From assembly GCA_030600585.1 (NCBI GenBank), contig JAUVLU010000011.1:1-60535 (forward strand): DNA of 60,535 nucleotides, given 5' to 3'. Below the pieces are notes generated by a model that worked only from the letters and a program-made list of their open reading frames with translations, did no database searches and was not told the DNA's origin. Position numbers and translations under genes: made by a program. Positions 3,373 to 50,485 of the stretch are shown here, one piece after another; position 1 is the stretch's first letter, and every line of letters begins with the position of its first letter. The stretch comes from Candidatus Cloacimonadota bacterium. GTDB lineage: Bacteria > Cloacimonadota > Cloacimonadia > Cloacimonadales > TCS61.

Positions 3373-3467
3373 TCTAATCTAACTCCTTCGACTGGAATAC
3401 AAAAAATGAATGGATTTTTTTGTCAAATAATTAAAACAGGGCTGTTATGCTAAATGGCTGTCTTTTG

Positions 3468-3494
3468 CAGTATGTGCAAAATTTGCACATACTG
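3468..3494. promoter_or_regulatory. 27-bp palindrome upstream of the LolA-like gene
   Basis: CAGTATGTGCAAA, a central A, then TTTGCACATACTG: perfect 13-base arms. It lies 96 bases before the start codon of the minus-strand LolA-like gene, with no U-tract, so an operator is more likely than a terminator. The binding protein is unknown. Confidence 0.4.
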
Positions 3495-3555
3495 AATATT
3501 CATCAAGTTCAACTTTCGAATGTGGCTCCCAACTTCCGAATGCTTCAACAAAGAG

Positions 3556-3576
3556 TCGGCTTGCGAAGCAAACGAT
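3556..3576. repeat. short dispersed palindromic repeat, copy 2
   Basis: TCGGCTTGCGAAGCAAACGAT, a variant of the element at 2591-2615. It lies in the 485-bp gene-free stretch 3373-3857, which otherwise holds the palindrome at 3468-3494 and an attC-like element at 3700-3830. The ORF on the other strand here is not credible. Confidence 0.45.
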
Positions 3577-3699
3577 CTCCACTCATTCATCTTAACTTTG
3601 TCGAATCTTCGGAATGTTGACTTCTTGAATCTTCAGCTTCTGATTTCAAAAAACAATCGGATGACCTTTGGACAATCCGATGTTTTCCCAACTTCTCAC

Positions 3700-3830
3700 G
3701 AAAGCTTTCGGGACGCCCTGACAGACCGACCAAAGTTTGAATCCGGCGTGTTTACTCCGGCTTTTGACGGATGCCAGATTCAGACGGAAAAAATAACGAG
3801 ACTGAATCGCAGGTGCTTTTTTTATGTAGC
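3700..3830 (-). other. attC-like recombination site A2, end of the two-gene cassette
   Basis: Read on the minus strand it starts with GCTACATAA, the exact complement of TTATGTAGC that begins this cassette at about 5540. This gives the R''/R' pairing expected of an integron cassette. AAAAAGCACCTGC follows, shared with element A1. Further on are GATTCAGTCT and TTTGGTCGGTCTG, and the GATTC...GAATC stem tracts shared with A1 and B1. The left limit is approximate because the downstream core site is not clear. Recombination activity is inferred. Confidence 0.5.
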
Positions 3831-3857
3831 ATAAAACTATTGCAAAAGAAATAAAAA

Positions 3858-5009
3858 CTAATTATTTAAACCAATTTTGGATTCATTGACATCATTTATA
3901 GTTGGTTTTCCAATTTTAAATAAATTGGCTTCTATATTTTTAGTTTCTGTTAACCAAGTTTCTAATTCCTGAGATTTAAGATTACGTTTTATCATTAGAA
4001 GTATAAAACCAATAAAAAAGCCAACAGCAGTTACATTATATATTGGGAATTCTCCTTCACCAAGAATTGAAGAAGCAATAATTAAAACAATAACTGAAAC
4101 AATCATTAAACCACATCCAAACCCACCTAAATCTTTTGAGGTCTTAAATGCTTTCTCGATAAGTTCATTTGTAATTTTGCCAAAATAGGATTTAATTTCT
4201 GAATATAATGATGAAAATTCATTATAAAACTTCGAATTAGATAAACCAATTAGTTCGCTAAATATCAATATTTTTTCAAATTCTGGAATAATACATTGAT
4301 TGTTTATGAAGTTTATCAGTTTGTTATTATCTAGAACGATAGTATTAATTTTTTTTTCAAAAGAGAGAAGTAAATTATTATATTCAATTAAAATAATATT
4401 ATGTATCGACTCTAACCATGTTTTTACAGCATTATCAATAAAAGCAATAATGTCCGGAGAGACACTTTTTTTCATTTCTATTAATGATTTAGCTAATGGT
4501 AATGTTTGTTCTATGATTTTGTAATTTTTATCAAAGATTTTGTTTTTAACATTTTCGTCATAATGTTTGAAACGATTTTCAGCAATTGGAATTATTGCAT
4601 CTTCTGTAAGCCATTTGCCTATTGAAATAAAAGTTGATAGAAGGTTGTCTGTTCCAATATTTTGTGAAAATTTAATGATTGCAATTGATTCAAAAATTGA
4701 TTTTATCTCTATATTTGTTTCAATCAGGTCGGAAGATAAGGATAAACATTTTTTCATTGATTTAATTGAATTTCCTAAGAAGTCTTCTTTTTTGTCCATT
4801 AATTGTAATTCAGAAATAGCTTTAATTAACCAACCAACAGGAGCTTTAGAATTTAACTTTATTGTCTCTTCTGAAAGAGCTAAAGTTTTTTCAAAATTGT
4901 CATTTTCTAGTTCAACAGATATTAAATCACATATAGAATTGATTTCATCTCTTTCACCTATTTGTAGTAAATCTTTCTTAAATAAATATTGAGCAATATT
5001 AGAATTCAT
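3858..5009 (-). CDS. helical membrane protein of unknown function (cassette A2, gene 2)
   Basis: Not recognised as a named family. The 383-residue protein has a mostly helical, TPR-like N-terminal two thirds (for example EKTLALSEETIKLNSKAPVGWLIKAISELQL). Two hydrophobic helices follow near residues 300-320 and 330-348, then a short charged tail, so it is probably anchored in the inner membrane with a large soluble domain. The start at 5009 was chosen because TTAGGAGGAATT precedes that ATG; an upstream start at 5051 would lack a ribosome site. It overlaps the nuclease-like gene by 11 bases, which suggests translational coupling. Together the two genes fill one integron-like cassette. A nuclease plus a membrane protein suggests a defence or toxin role, which is inference only. 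Confidence 0.6.
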   Translation of the reverse strand: MNSNIAQYLFKKDLLQIGERDEINSICDLISVELENDNFEKTLALSEETIKLNSKAPVGWLIKAISELQLMDKKEDFLGNSIKSMKKCLSLSSDLIETNIEIKSIFESIAIIKFSQNIGTDNLLSTFISIGKWLTEDAIIPIAENRFKHYDENVKNKIFDKNYKIIEQTLPLAKSLIEMKKSVSPDIIAFIDNAVKTWLESIHNIILIEYNNLLLSFEKKINTIVLDNNKLINFINNQCIIPEFEKILIFSELIGLSNSKFYNEFSSLYSEIKSYFGKITNELIEKAFKTSKDLGGFGCGLMIVSVIVLIIASSILGEGEFPIYNVTAVGFFIGFILLMIKRNLKSQELETWLTETKNIEANLFKIGKPTINDVNESKIGLNN

Positions 5010-5508
5010 AATTCCTCCTAATTTTAGAGAATTTACCAATATAAAGAACACCCTTTAATAACTCATTAAAGTGTATCTCGATTTGTTCAAATTTTTCAAA
5101 ATACATTTTAATTTCATTTATATGATTGTCATATGTAGAATTGTTTATAATTTTTGGATATACTATTAATATGATGACATTATTATTTAATTTTGAGTTT
5201 TTTATTAGTTCCCTTTTTTCAATTGAACGTTTTAGATCACAAATATTTGTAGGTACCTGATTATTTGTTTCAGAAGTTAATACTTTCAATTCAATTGCCC
5301 AATCACCAACAACAATATCGACATCATTATGTTTTTCAGGAATTACATTTTCATTATTCATAATCGTTTTCAATAAACCTACAATTTCAACTTGTAACCA
5401 ACCTTCAAACCGAGACCTTTGATTGGTATATGATTCTATACCTCTGTGTTTTTCAATTTTTGGAATTATGCTTTTTCTTATCGCTTCAACTAAAACCGAA
5501 AAATTCAT
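4999..5508 (-). CDS. PD-(D/E)XK nuclease-like protein (cassette A2, gene 1)
   Basis: A 169-residue protein with a likely PD-(D/E)XK core. An early glutamate-bearing helix (RFEGWLQVEIVGLL) is followed by VDIVVGDWAIELKV, giving the D...(E)xK arrangement near residues 63-75, then predicted strands such as NVIILIVYP. This suggests a metal-dependent DNA or RNA nuclease, but the target is unknown. GGAGG lies seven bases before the ATG. The gene begins only about 30 bases after the cassette start (core site TTATGTAGC) and is coupled by an 11-base overlap to the membrane-protein gene. It has no promoter of its own that I can see, as is usual for integron cassettes. Confidence 0.6.
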   Translation of the reverse strand: MNFSVLVEAIRKSIIPKIEKHRGIESYTNQRSRFEGWLQVEIVGLLKTIMNNENVIPEKHNDVDIVVGDWAIELKVLTSETNNQVPTNICDLKRSIEKRELIKNSKLNNNVIILIVYPKIINNSTYDNHINEIKMYFEKFEQIEIHFNELLKGVLYIGKFSKIRRNYEF

Positions 5509-5532
5509 TTCAAAACCTCCTTTATTTTTATG

Positions 5533-5668
5533 CTACATAATGTGTGGCGTGTGCGGCGGGAATCCGGCAGCTGCCGGATCACGACCAAACAAACCGACCA
5601 AACCTGAATCGGAACGATTCAGACGAAAGCGGACTGCCAACCCAACTGCAGGTGCTTTTGTTAGTGGC
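5533..5668 (-). other. attC-like recombination site A1 between the two cassettes
   Basis: On the minus strand it starts with GCCACTAACAAAAGCACCTG (R'' complementary to TTAGTGGC, the start of the same cassette at about 6686). It ends with GCCACACATTATGTAGC, where TTATGTAGC begins the next cassette. In the middle is TGAATCGTTCCGATTCA (5605-5621), a 7-bp stem also present in element B1. At about 136 bp it is close to Vibrio-type attC (VCR) length. Site function is inferred from layout. Confidence 0.6.
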
Positions 5669-5672
5669 AAAT

Positions 5673-6665
5673 CTACTCCATTAATCTTTTTGTAAATTCT
5701 TTAAATGTGACACATCTATTGGGAGGAATCATTGCAGAAATCCATCCTTTTCCTCTTCCTTTTTTTATTGTTCCATCTTTTAATAAATTTTTATTTAACC
5801 TCAAAGGTTTATCGAGAAAATAATATGTGAAAACTTCATTTGAATCTTGATCATTAGATTCTACTCCAGAAATCCAATTATTTACAATTTGTTTATCTTT
5901 ACAAAAACTTAGAAGGTCACTTTCGAAATTTCTTATGTCTTTTGGGCTTAAAGTTAAAATACCCAGAATTTTTGATAGATAACTAATCCCAAGACCTTCT
6001 TCTTGTTTAGCATTATTTGTAAAGTATGGAGCAAAATATAGAGGACTACCAAAGGTTTGATTTCTTCTATAAATTCGATACTTTTTAAATCTTTCTATTT
6101 CGTTAGAATCCGAAACATCTTGTACTAAAATTTCTTTTTGCTCAGTCATTTTAAAACTCCTTATAATATATTTTAAAAATTCATTTATAATTTCATCATC
6201 ATAAAACTCACGATTATCAAATAAAGTAATTATATCAAACCAGCTTAAATGTAAAATTTGAATGTTATCTGTTACAAGCTTATTTGTGTCTCTTTTTTGA
6301 GTTATAAAACATAAGATATTTTTTGTGCAATTAGAATCGAATGCTGTTAAATATTGAGTCCTTTGTTCTTTTATTTTATTATTTCTAACTTTAGATTCAA
6401 TAATTATGTGAAAATAAGTTGAATATTTTATTTCAATATCTGTTCGTCCTTCTTTTCTACTTTTCTCTGTTAAAATATCAATTTCTTTGAAATTATTCAT
6501 CGTATTTTTATATGGTAAACCAATGCTTTGCAAAAATTGGAAAAGAGCTTTAGAGTTATTACCAATAATATATGCAAAAGCTTTAGAAAGTGCTGCTTCA
6601 TCGTTACCAAGTAAATCAAATCTATTCAGTATTGAATATGGATGACCAGATTTTTTTATCAACAA
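5673..6665 (-). CDS. PD-(D/E)XK nuclease superfamily protein (cassette A1)
   Basis: A 330-residue protein with a PD-(D/E)XK core in its N-terminal third. EIDILTEK is followed by GRTDIEI and then FHIIIESKV, supplying the catalytic Asp and the E-x-K pair near residues 75-93. YLTAFD and ILCFITQKRD fit the following helix and strand of the PDDEXK fold. The C-terminal half is unassigned. The start is TTG at 6665 (a second TTG follows) with GGAG six bases upstream; no ATG fits. The gene fills the cassette: its start lies 21 bases after TTAGTGGC and its stop lies five bases before the complementary GCCACTAAC. A defence role is plausible but unproven. Confidence 0.65.
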   Translation of the reverse strand: MLIKKSGHPYSILNRFDLLGNDEAALSKAFAYIIGNNSKALFQFLQSIGLPYKNTMNNFKEIDILTEKSRKEGRTDIEIKYSTYFHIIIESKVRNNKIKEQRTQYLTAFDSNCTKNILCFITQKRDTNKLVTDNIQILHLSWFDIITLFDNREFYDDEIINEFLKYIIRSFKMTEQKEILVQDVSDSNEIERFKKYRIYRRNQTFGSPLYFAPYFTNNAKQEEGLGISYLSKILGILTLSPKDIRNFESDLLSFCKDKQIVNNWISGVESNDQDSNEVFTYYFLDKPLRLNKNLLKDGTIKKGRGKGWISAMIPPNRCVTFKEFTKRLME

Positions 6666-6678
6666 TTTTCACTCCTTT

Positions 6679-6786
6679 GCCACTAACATCTGCACGCCAC
6701 GTCCACCGAAATGGTATACATAACCAACTTATAGATATGATAAAAATAGGTATACAATAACTTTTTTGTAAGTTATTGTATACCAT
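6679..6786 (-). other. attI-like junction and identical block, copy A
   Basis: Bases 6703-6786 are identical to 49925-50008. On the minus strand the block holds a hairpin (6749-6784; arms GGTATACAATAACTT, followed by TATTTTTATC) that could terminate the recombinase transcript. It then has a further GGTATAC-type half repeat (6714-6720) and CACGTCC-type sequence leading to GATGTTAGTGGC, where the first cassette starts. The position between a recombinase 3' end and the first cassette suggests an attI site. This is inference; no cleavage evidence exists. Confidence 0.5.
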
Positions 6787-6981
6787 TCAATCATCAATCT
6801 CGATATCCAAATTATCAAGTGGATTCTTAATTTTACTGAGTCCTCTTTTCGTTATATGTGTATAAATCTCTGTTGTCTGCCCCGTAGTTTTGAAAAAATG
6901 TATCGGGGTTTTAGAACTGTTATGTCCAAGAATTTTCTGAATATATCTCAAGTTTCCTCTCCTAAATTCTAATGTTTCAAG
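6787..6981 (-). pseudogene. C-terminal relic of an IntI-like tyrosine recombinase, copy A
   Basis: The minus-strand frame reads ETLEFRRGNLRYIQKILGHN, then SSKT, an extra PIHFFKTTGQT, then TEIYTHITKRGLSKIKNPLD and NLDIEIDD before TGA. LGHxSSKT, TEIYTH (tyrosine nucleophile) and KIKNPLDNL match the C-terminal box of tyrosine recombinases. The R/K-[SN]-PLD-[NR]-L ending is seen in integron integrases. The frame is closed upstream by TAA at 6982-6984, and the rest of the enzyme is missing. Eleven codons interrupt the usual SSKT-TEIYTH junction, and the same insert occurs in copy B. It is dead as an enzyme. Confidence 0.65.
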
Positions 6982-7547
6982 TTAATTATTAAAATCAAAA
7001 CCGAATTTGATAAAATGATAGTTAGGTGTCAATTAGAAAATAATTCTGAGTTTCGACTCGAAAGAGAAACGTCGAGTCGAAGCGGTGCAATTAGCCATTG
7101 TTAGGTTCAAGACAATCCGTCAAATGCCGGAGGAACGAGTAAAAATAAAATCTGAGATTCTTCCGTCTTCGTCCCGATTTTCGGGACTACGCCGCGACAA
7201 GTCGTCGAATGTCTATGTATGTTCATCCTCAGACTGTGTCCGGCTTTTGACGGAAAGACAGATTTATTTTTCATTCTCAAATCGTATATCGAAAATCTCA
7301 AATCAATTCTTTCTGCGGCTTCTAATGCCTGCCCGCCTCTGGCGTGGCTCCCTCTTTTGTTTTTGAAGAGAGGGAAAGCAGGGTGAGTTAATTCTTTCAG
7401 CGGCATCTTATGTTATTATGAGTCAGGTTTACTTTCCCGCCACGGAGTGTCGGGCTACTGCGTTCACCTTTCTTTGCGTACTTAGCGTCTTTGCGGTGAG
7501 TTATCATTATTCTTGACGCTATCCACGTCATTTTCAAATTGCAATTT
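6982..7547. other. gene-free, repeat-rich stretch before mfd
   Basis: No credible gene. About the first 60 bases stay similar to 50205-50260, including AAAATCAAAACCGAATTTG and GGTGTCAATTAGAAA. Further similar pieces shared with the region upstream of 50485 are GAGAGGGAAAGCAGGGTGAG near 7368 and TTTCTTTGCGTACTTAGCG near 7471. So the duplicated region extends well beyond the recombinase relic. TCCGGCTTTTGACGGA near 7240 also occurs near 3763. A weak TTGACG (7513) could belong to an mfd promoter. Confidence 0.45.
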
Positions 7548-48689: not shown

Positions 48690-48815
48690 GATTAATGTTT
48701 GGCAGCTGCGGTATCGGTACGATCACGCCTGGAAACGAACCAACCAAAGTTTGAATCGGTACGATTCAGCCCAAACAAACCACCCAGCCTACCCGCTGAC
48801 ACGCTTGTTATTCCC
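48690..48815 (-). other. attC-like recombination site B1
   Basis: On the minus strand it starts GGGAATAACAAGCGTG, nearly complementary (one mismatch) to TTATGCCC at the cassette start (about 49908). It ends GCCAAACATTAATC, closely matching the end of element A1 (GCCACACATTA). The centre has TGAATCGTACCGATTCA (48752-48768) and TTTGGTTGGTT, both shared with A1. Length is about 126 bp. No further cassette is recognisable beyond it; 48583-48689 holds nothing else I can name. Confidence 0.58.
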
Positions 48816-48844
48816 AATTAAATTCATAATTTGTATAGACACAA

Positions 48845-49423
48845 TTAATCTTGATTTAATCTATTTTTATAATACTCAATCATTATTGTTTGCAACTCAA
48901 CTTGTTGCTTTATTTGAGCGTCATCTTGAATAAAAGTAATTGGAAGTGAATTTTCACCTGATAGAATCTCAATTAGGCCTTTTCTCAAATTTTCTTGTTC
49001 TCTTTCAACAGTTGCATGACCAATTGGAGAATAAATGTTTCTTTTAATCAGAACTTTATCAAAATTATATCCTAATGACTTTCCCATTTCATATAATAAA
49101 TTTGATAACAAGTCTTCATTTTTCGAAATCCAAAGAGATAAGTCTTTATCCTCCACTTTTTGGAGTAAGTTATCAAAATATTCCTTCCAAGCTATAATGA
49201 CTGTATTATGCTTTTTATTATCAGAAAATTCTAAGTCAATTCTATTTAAAGCTTCAACATGAGCATGTGAAAGTGGAGCACCACGAGTTGCTATTAATGT
49301 TTTAAAAACTGATAACTTTCTATTGCTCTTTTCTCTGTTCCTTGCTAACATTTTTTCAATTTGAACAGCTGCAATTGGACCAATTATTATAGCAAGAATT
49401 GTTAAAATATTTGCTAATTCCAT
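48845..49423 (-). CDS. DUF6680-like membrane-anchored protein (cassette B1, gene 2)
   Basis: A 192-residue protein with one N-terminal membrane helix (ILTILAIIIGPIAAVQI) and a cytoplasmic domain. It carries KLSVFKTLIATRGAPLSHAHVEALNRIDLEF near residues 36-66, a pattern I associate with the DUF6680 family. The function of that family is unknown. GAGAGG lies before the ATG, inside the end of the GIY-YIG gene, whose stop is two bases upstream. The gene ends 30 bases before the attC-like element, so cassette boundaries frame the pair tightly. Confidence 0.65.
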   Translation of the reverse strand: MELANILTILAIIIGPIAAVQIEKMLARNREKSNRKLSVFKTLIATRGAPLSHAHVEALNRIDLEFSDNKKHNTVIIAWKEYFDNLLQKVEDKDLSLWISKNEDLLSNLLYEMGKSLGYNFDKVLIKRNIYSPIGHATVEREQENLRKGLIEILSGENSLPITFIQDDAQIKQQVELQTIMIEYYKNRLNQD

Positions 49424-49425
49424 AT

Positions 49426-49848
49426 CTAATTCCTCTCAACAATATTTGATGTTCTTATAAATTTGTGATTCCCCGTGCAATTAACAATTGTTTTATCAAA
49501 TGGAAACGCATTTTTAAATTCTGTATTTTCTGGTGGTTGATTTGAATTAATTAATGCTGCTTCAACTCTTTCATTGTATTGTTTGTCAACAAATGTGTAA
49601 CAAATACAGATTTGTTCTTCTTTTTTTAGGTAAGAAAGGAAATCATTCCATTTTTCATGCTTGTTGAGCCTTTCATATAAGTCATCAGCCTTACCAATAT
49701 AAATAAGTTGTTTTAAGTTCACAGAATCTTTATCTTCGTTGTAAACACACCGATAAATTCCATAAACTCCCGAATTTGCAGATATAGATTTAATCCCTCT
49801 TTGAAGTCTATAACCTTTAAATTCTTGATTAAATTGTTTCTCAGCCAT
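49426..49848 (-). CDS. GIY-YIG nuclease-fold protein (cassette B1, gene 1)
   Basis: A 140-residue protein with the GIY-YIG core: SGVYGIYRCVYN near 26 and LIYIGKADDLYERLNKHEKW near 48, where tyrosine and arginine of the active site are present. NERVEAALINSNQPPENTEF near 93 holds the metal-binding glutamate and a terminal asparagine. This suggests a small nickase or nuclease; the substrate is unknown. GGAGG precedes the ATG. It is the first gene of cassette B1, beginning about 60 bases after the cassette start, and is followed by the membrane-anchored DUF6680-like gene. Confidence 0.8.
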   Translation of the reverse strand: MAEKQFNQEFKGYRLQRGIKSISANSGVYGIYRCVYNEDKDSVNLKQLIYIGKADDLYERLNKHEKWNDFLSYLKKEEQICICYTFVDKQYNERVEAALINSNQPPENTEFKNAFPFDKTIVNCTGNHKFIRTSNIVERN

Positions 49849-49900
49849 TTTACCTCCTTAGATTTACCTTATTTTATAAGACTTTATAACATTTAGTTTT

Positions 49901-50008
49901 GGGCATAACGGCGGCGTGCCACGCCCACCGAAATGGTATACATAACCAACTTATAGATATGATAAAAATAGGTATACAATAACTTTTTTGTAAGTTATTG
50001 TATACCAT
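49901..50008 (-). other. attI-like junction and identical block, copy B
   Basis: Bases 49925-50008 equal 6703-6786 exactly. The hairpin (arms GGTATACAATAACTT) lies at 49971-50006. On the minus strand the block leads into GGCACGCCGCCGTTATGCCC, where cassette B1 begins after the G. Confidence 0.5.
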
Positions 50009-50009
50009 A

Positions 50010-50204
50010 TCAATCCTCAATATCAATATCTAAATTATCAAGTGGACTCTTAATTTTACTGAGTCCTATTTTCTTTATATGTGTATATCTCTCAGTTGCC
50101 TGCACCGTAGTTTTGAAAAAATGTATCGGTATTTTTAAATTCTTATGTCCCCAAATCTTCTGATTAAATTTCAAATCTTCTCTCCAAAATTCTAATGTTG
50201 CAAA
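50010..50204 (-). pseudogene. C-terminal relic of an IntI-like tyrosine recombinase, copy B
   Basis: The frame reads TLEFWREDLKFNQKIWGHKN, then LKIPIHFFKTTVQA, then TERYTHIKKIGLSKIKSPLD and NLDIDIED before TGA. It has the same length, the same 11-codon insert and the same closing TAA just upstream (50205-50207) as copy A, but more substitutions in conserved places (LGH to WGH, EIYTH to ERYTH). So both copies derive from one truncated ancestor, or were truncated before duplication. Confidence 0.62.
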
Positions 50205-50485
50205 TTATTTTTTAAAATCAAAACCGAATTTGTAAATATTATTATTAGGTGTCAATTAGAAACTTTGAACTTCTCGATTCACACTCTCTCCGCTCGCTGC
50301 ATATCAATTCTTTCAGCGGCATCTAATGATCCCTCTCTTGCGTTTGAAGAGAGGGATAGCAGGGTGAGTTAATTTTTCTTGCGGCTTCTTTATACTTTCG
50401 CTATCCTTCCCCGATTTTCGGGGCTCAGGATGACAATATCTTTTTCAGCAGTTGCCTTTCTTTGCGTACTTAGCGGCAAATTATT
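50205..50485. other. gene-free repeat stretch downstream of glnA
   Basis: Continues the duplication shared with 6982-7500: AAACCGAATTTG and GGTGTCAATTAGAAA, then GAGAGGGATAGCAGGGTGAG near 50351 and TTTCTTTGCGTACTTAGCG near 50457. CCCCGATTTTCGGGG near 50410 is a short hairpin. No gene seen. Confidence 0.45.

Follow-up and report, generated by a model that had tools for sequence, protein, structure and literature searches.

Two cassette arrays lying 43 kb apart in the window (the whole 60,535-nucleotide stretch of Candidatus Cloacimonadota DNA that was analysed) are probably satellites of a patch-less integron-like platform, composed of a promoter, two tyrosine recombinase genes (Rec1 and Rec2), an attI site and cassettes, and would be served by recombinases acting in trans. 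By presumed function and by anatomy the arrays appear integron-like, but the enzyme to which they point, which lacks the I2 patch of the integron integrase IntI, would not make them classical integrons.

Anatomy of the two arrays

Array B, the stretch under study, is read from high to low coordinates and comprised the following features:

48690-50262, minus: array B, whole block (leader, Rec2 tail, attI-like site and one cassette)
50200..50262, minus: left part of the leader, promoter-like, with TTGACA at 50250-50255; aligns with sequence that lies upstream of Rec1 in relatives
50010-50174, minus: ORF of the Rec2 remnant, last ~50 codons (LKFNQKIWGHK...YTHIKKIGLSKIKSPLDNLDIDIED, then stop; profile A1 residues 314-359)
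49909..50009, minus: attI-like site with inverted repeat GTATACAATAACTT...AAGTTATTGTATAC; the 84-bp block of the sequence-only reading
between 49909 and 49908, minus: attI-like crossover
48696..49908, minus: gene cassette B1, two genes and attC; ends TTATGCCCAA and TTGGGAATAA pair at 9/10 bases
49426..49848, minus: GIY-YIG nuclease-domain protein, 140 aa (Pfam PF01541, 5.8e-6)
48845..49423, minus: DUF6680 protein, 192 aa (Pfam PF20385, 2.1e-59)
48696..48815, minus: attC-like site of B1, arms partly degenerate, end CCAAACA^TTAATC
48752-48769: central stem of the B1 attC-like site, CTGAATCGTACCGATTCA

The core GTTATGCCC (49901-49909, minus) and its near-complement GGGAATAAC (48807-48815, minus) paired at 9 of 10 bases. 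A similar layout with different genes was noted in the sister array:

3440-7039, minus: array A, whole (PDDEXK_4-like nuclease and two unknowns)
6787..7039, minus: leader and Rec2 tail (tail ORF 6787-6951)
6687..6786, minus: attI-like site, end GCAGATG^TTA
5541..6686, minus: cassette A1, ends pair at 11/11 bases
5673-6665, minus: PDDEXK_4 nuclease-like gene in A1 (Pfam PF14281)
5541-5668, minus: attC-like site of A1, fold z -3.6
5605-5622: stem of the A1 attC-like site, CTGAATCGTTCCGATTCA
3440..5540, minus: cassette A2 (ORFs 4999-5508 and 3858-5051), ends TTATGTAGCATAAAA and TTTTATGCTACATAA pair at 15/15; degenerate at the far end and in attC; left boundary approximate

The arrays shared a repeat of 103 nt (49906-50008 versus 6684-6786, 94% identity) that contains the 84-bp block and was followed by further similarity at 85% identity (50010-50262 versus 6787-7039). 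The sequence-only reading had described in array B a minus-strand recombinase tail, a core, two genes, a near-complement and an attC-like element, all of which were present, the tail in both arrays, and the TGAATCG stem and the end that it had reported as common to site A1 were likewise borne out. Its interpretation of the loci as cassette arrays is upheld by attI-like and attC-like sites, by base pairing between the two ends of a cassette and by the different genes behind like leaders. Partial decay of the window attC sites is suggested by their mismatched arms and by the single-strand folding of the B1 site, which was average (z -1.7). Two of the four single-strand folds, those of L151 and L201, had slightly shifted coordinates and were left out of account. 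One attC was counted in array B, and one clear and one degenerate in array A; the definition of a CALIN asks for at least two without an integrase. A simple arm-pairing scan within the window was unspecific (9-13 hits per 6 kb control). An inverted repeat, TTCGACTCGACG...TTTCGAGTCGAA, was noted in repeated sequence that precedes several leaders (7040-7100 and the upstream flanks of loci L004, L005, L019 and L022).

Distribution in the genome

A search of the organism's own assembly (2.58 Mb, 89 contigs, 97% complete) with the 357-bp leader block gave 32 matches, corresponding to ~28 distinct loci (best E 6e-186), and the TGAATCG stem was present in 13 copies; the further copies of block and stem for which a search had been proposed were thus found. 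The end CCGCCGCACACGCCAAACATTA (CCGCCGCACACGCC-AACATTA) occurred in 8 near-exact copies, and the reversed control patterns of stem and end each occurred 0 times. The elements shared by arrays A and B were far above chance expectation, and the copies of leader, stem and end across the genome indicate that both arrays belong to a genome-wide family. Upstream flanks beyond the leader were common to some copies, which points to spread partly via larger duplications. A second attI type, ending ACA^TTA (L014, L015, L017 and others), matched the attI behind single intact recombinases of two relatives (G031 and G018); therefore, two cognate platforms appear to have left satellites in this genome.

Rec2 profiles recognized only tails, most of which started near residue 307-317, and two Xer-like genes. 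The full-length integrase with a matching C-terminus for which a genome search had been proposed was not found: the 97%-complete assembly held neither a full-length IntI nor an intact Rec1/Rec2 pair, only the two Xer-like genes (302-303 aa; XerC/XerD-like), and no classical IntI in it exceeded the family cut-off. Given that no intact pair is present in this assembly, activity here may be extinct.

Leader or attI sequence was also noted downstream of glnA, 0.5-14 kb off, in six congeneric species (L245-L250), as in the window. The distances and neighbours of these copies varied, and as the far flank (AFOR) was not shared, none of the six species gave a clean empty site. When cassettes were chained automatically from the pairing of their ends and nothing else, the result in this AT-rich genome was mostly noise, so only predefined junctions were used. 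PADLOC indicated no clear defence genes.

Recombinases adjoining attI in relatives

The block formed by the window tail and attI adjoined the second of two tandem tyrosine recombinase genes in genomes G021, G001, G005, G015 (twice) and G002, with 88% identity in G021 over q164-349; the organism names of the sequence relatives were Candidatus Cloacimonadota and Candidatus Tenebribacter davisii. The full platform in Cloacimonadota relatives consisted of promoter, Rec1, Rec2, attI and cassettes, all on one strand, and the regions upstream of Rec1 aligned with the satellite leaders (TTTTC.AATTGACA, followed by a CAAATTCGGTTTTG-like stretch). Service in trans, as proposed earlier for a single integrase and several loci, is made plausible by the congeneric genomes G001, G002 and G005, in each of which many recombinase-free arrays accompany an intact pair of recombinases, and satellites of this kind are probably so served; in the own assembly, XerC/XerD-like recombinases and tails were the only candidates.

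Rec2 (~360 aa) retained the complete catalytic set R212, K237, H301, R304, H327 and Y336, also in a 12-row alignment (A3). Its best PDB match was the Vibrio integron integrase IntI (2a3v), of which residues 180-240, the region of the IntI-specific patch, were unmatched. The I2 patch was missing from Rec2 in a residue-level alignment (gap of ~40 residues), and both Rec2 and the Bacteroidota enzymes skipped TIGR02249 positions ~180-238 and scored below the TIGR02249 cut-off. In Rec1, Arg I was replaced by T/S in 9/10 sequences and HxxR by TxxK or SxxK in 10/10, the tyrosine being kept where the C-terminal end was present; orthologues scoring over 480 bits occurred in 9 of the 125 genomes that represented the phylum. 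The tail in the window is thus not that of an integron integrase in the usual sense, as had been supposed, but that of Rec2, an enzyme without the I2 patch that is paired with a catalytically degenerate Rec1.

In a quick tree, which carried a long-branch warning that bears on the order among clades, Rec1, Rec2, most Bacteroidota enzymes and IntI were split from host Xer by a long, fully supported branch; IntI formed its own clade, and the single Cloacimonadota recombinases with which Rec1 was nested are catalytically intact. Structure prediction by AlphaFold gave models of middling quality (pLDDT 73 and 79), and that of Rec2 resembled XerA and IntI.

The single, catalytically intact Cloacimonadota recombinases were associated with an attI type of their own, ending ACACACA^TTA (L121, 1700-1850, and L124, where the contig end falls exactly at the crossover), and the attI after one such gene (L123) ended ACAGTCA^TTA. 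On contig C175 of genome G002 (L128, 1-993), a short-type attC (ATAACAAACAGCTCCACAG) lay ~24 bases past the end of a disrupted classical IntI gene, an arrangement that looks like a classical integrase turned into cassette cargo.

Cassettes and sites in relatives

A scan of 84,980 species genomes placed relatives of Rec2 in Neomarinimicrobiota and many Bacteroidota, and those that were aligned were also without the patch. Directly behind these aligned enzymes lay a hairpin resembling attI, with G^TT at its end, and those of Flavobacterium, Pedobacter and others headed cassette arrays with classical-looking attC (median 121 bp); no classical IntI above the family cut-off was found in eight array-bearing Bacteroidota genomes. 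In all, 94 Bacteroidota attC sites in 21 loci were supported by cassette-end pairing, and one array contained 10/10 consecutive cassettes with 8/8 end pairing. Covariation of the arms was evident from the 54 different 8-mers that occurred in these 94 sites with pairing kept, and average pairing energy was -20.5 kcal/mol for a site's own arms as opposed to -10.1 for swapped arms, a contrast that is somewhat inflated, the sites having been partly picked by energy. The attC sites observed were hairpins of 60-150 bp. The short Cloacimonadota attC served as an independent test: pairing of the arms reached 3.4/4 positions only when the 3' arm was given exactly one additional base, other offsets giving 0.3-0.7. 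This single unpaired base of Cloacimonadota attC was located in the 3' (L') arm; the unpaired base of classical attC is in L''.

With respect to the features that mark an integron, attI was found beside the recombinase with cassettes joining at G^TT, whereas neither Rec2 nor the Bacteroidota enzymes were an IntI with the I2 patch; paired R/L arms whose structure is better conserved than their sequence were seen in the Bacteroidota and Cloacimonadota relatives and in part in the window.

Turnover at the crossover was evident among three Flavobacterium species, in which recombinase (98-99%) and attI (97-100%) were nearly identical and identity immediately past the crossover was 58-64%, so that the genes behind one attI differed between near-identical platforms. 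For excision and insertion of cassettes by the recombinase, this turnover is indirect evidence only. Many platform contigs ended at or just beyond the attI crossover, which fits cassettes that vary within the population, although repeats alone could also explain it.

The complete Bacteroidetes genome UKL13-3 (CP012155; L190, L191 and L195) contained three patch-less platforms, two of which had near-identical attI and different cassettes. A Chryseobacterium plasmid (L244, NZ_CP041688, 7183-11796) carried a patch-less recombinase and an array in which a 137-bp attC of equal pairing energy occurred three times; thus, the patch-less platform is plasmid-borne too. The xerD/tnpF gene that precedes tet(X3) on Acinetobacter plasmids, as in pHH1107 (L243, FJ012881, 4139-6300), was a patch-less relative with 49% identity to the Flavobacterium enzyme; it was followed by an attI-like CACTTG^TTATGTGCC, and tet(X3) by an attC-like TAACAAGC...ACA^TTAGC with weak arms. 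From these sequences, tet(X3) may have left Flavobacteriaceae as a cassette of a patch-less platform.

Proposed mechanism and alternative explanations

What is retained in the arrays of the window, namely the promoter, the final ~50 codons of Rec2 and attI, makes them look like derivative copies formed by internal deletion. The simplest reading of the leader is a single deletion followed by multiplication: Rec1 and the greater part of Rec2 would have been deleted from one ancestral copy, so that promoter, tail and attI were left, and the derivative would have multiplied to about two dozen loci. Rec2, together with Rec1 in Cloacimonadota, would catalyse recombination between the attC of a cassette and attI. 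Crossover at the conserved TT (G^TT in attI, A^TT in attC) would bring the cassette in, and attC would presumably be folded from one chosen strand. The recombinase promoter, which points to attI, would also drive the first cassettes. Recombinases from an intact platform would act in trans, the satellites being either so served or in decay. More tentatively, the enzymes may form a patch-less clade in which the degenerate Rec1 takes the role of the patch, either gripping folded sites or blocking exchange of the second strand, and in which satellites multiply and rely on one pair in trans.

The folding of the sites is the part of this scheme most open to a different interpretation, in which they are read as ordinary double-stranded DNA, as dif is by XerC/D, and the attC arms are inverted binding sites without any single-strand folding. 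The loss of the I2 patch, by which IntI recognizes folded attC, and the sequence kinship with XerA speak for such reading, which we nevertheless regard as rather doubtful, since the arms vary widely between cassettes with pairing kept (the 54 8-mers noted above) and the single extra base is conserved in its position, as expected for the reading of structure. It is unlikely that the arrays are instead remnants of ordinary integrons, i.e., leftovers of CALIN type whose cassettes were inserted by a classical IntI with the patch, since lost or lying elsewhere. Although IntI-like genes were present in two relatives (intact in G015, 442 bits, and broken in G002) and Bacteroidota attC look classical, the leader tails match Rec2 rather than IntI, the attI copies lie behind Rec2 or single patch-less recombinases, no IntI over the cut-off was present in the own genome or the eight array-bearing Bacteroidota genomes, and the disrupted IntI of G002 ends just before a short attC in the manner of cargo.

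Far less probable still are dispersed intergenic repeats or transposon ends that spread by homologous recombination, with hairpins that act as terminators. The upstream flanks shared by some leaders, which place part of the spread in larger duplications, would agree with this, but the array boundaries fall at the crossover, the ends of a cassette pair mutually and genes differ behind like attI. The transposon ends that the sequence-only reading had named as its alternative gained no support: the repeat search gave no terminal repeat pair at the array edges, the Pfam matches of the array genes included no transposase, and no target duplications were noticed. Satellites of a patch-less platform remain the preferred explanation.

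Comparison with known systems and implications

As in the chromosomal integron (Vibrio superintegron), a cassette array has attI at one end and attC of ~60-150 bp with R and L arms, cassette ends pair and crossover is at a conserved TT. In contrast with that system, the recombinase is without the I2 patch and its gene is oriented like the cassettes, the Cloacimonadota platform has two recombinases, one of them catalytically degenerate, and Cloacimonadota attC have A instead of G as the crossover base and an extra base in the 3' (L') arm. The integron of Treponema denticola, with one platform per genome, has a single classical IntI with the patch, and its recombinase gene is oriented like the cassettes with the 3' end adjoining attI; the arrangement here is the same in orientation and position but differs in the patch-less enzyme. 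Cassettes without a neighbouring integrase recall CALIN, yet in most of the present arrays attI and part of a recombinase gene persist, and the enzyme to which they correspond is not IntI. A related tyrosine recombinase pair and modules moved site-specifically are likewise found in XerC/XerD with dif and in pdif modules; the Xer pair, however, is unlinked with both members active and dif is a fixed 28-bp site with two 11-bp arms, whereas Rec1 and Rec2 sit beside attI and the sites are variable hairpins.

The patch domain has been called defining and necessary for IntI (PMC9668308), and its gain by an Xer-like ancestor has been discussed (PMC4792948). In the IntegronFinder 2.0 survey, the integrases listed for Bacteroidetes proper all lacked cassettes, and Salinibacter had the one complete integron (PMC9024848). 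Proteins of the present kind are named 'site-specific tyrosine recombinase/integron integrase' at NCBI. A literature search, outside which most subscription papers and preprints lay, found no report that ties such proteins to attI and cassette arrays and none of the Rec1-Rec2 pair; patch-less platforms in common Bacteroidota such as Flavobacterium are apparently unreported.

Acquisition of the I2 patch is seen as the step by which an Xer-like enzyme became an integron integrase. With patch-less platforms in culturable Flavobacterium and relatives, the need for the patch becomes directly testable, as does whether patch-less enzymes represent the ancestral state or secondary loss. Searches that require IntI miss these platforms, so that the extent to which Bacteroidota exchange cassettes is probably underestimated. 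In Cloacimonadota, a pair of one dead and one active recombinase together with recombinase-free satellite arrays would be a new genomic organisation.
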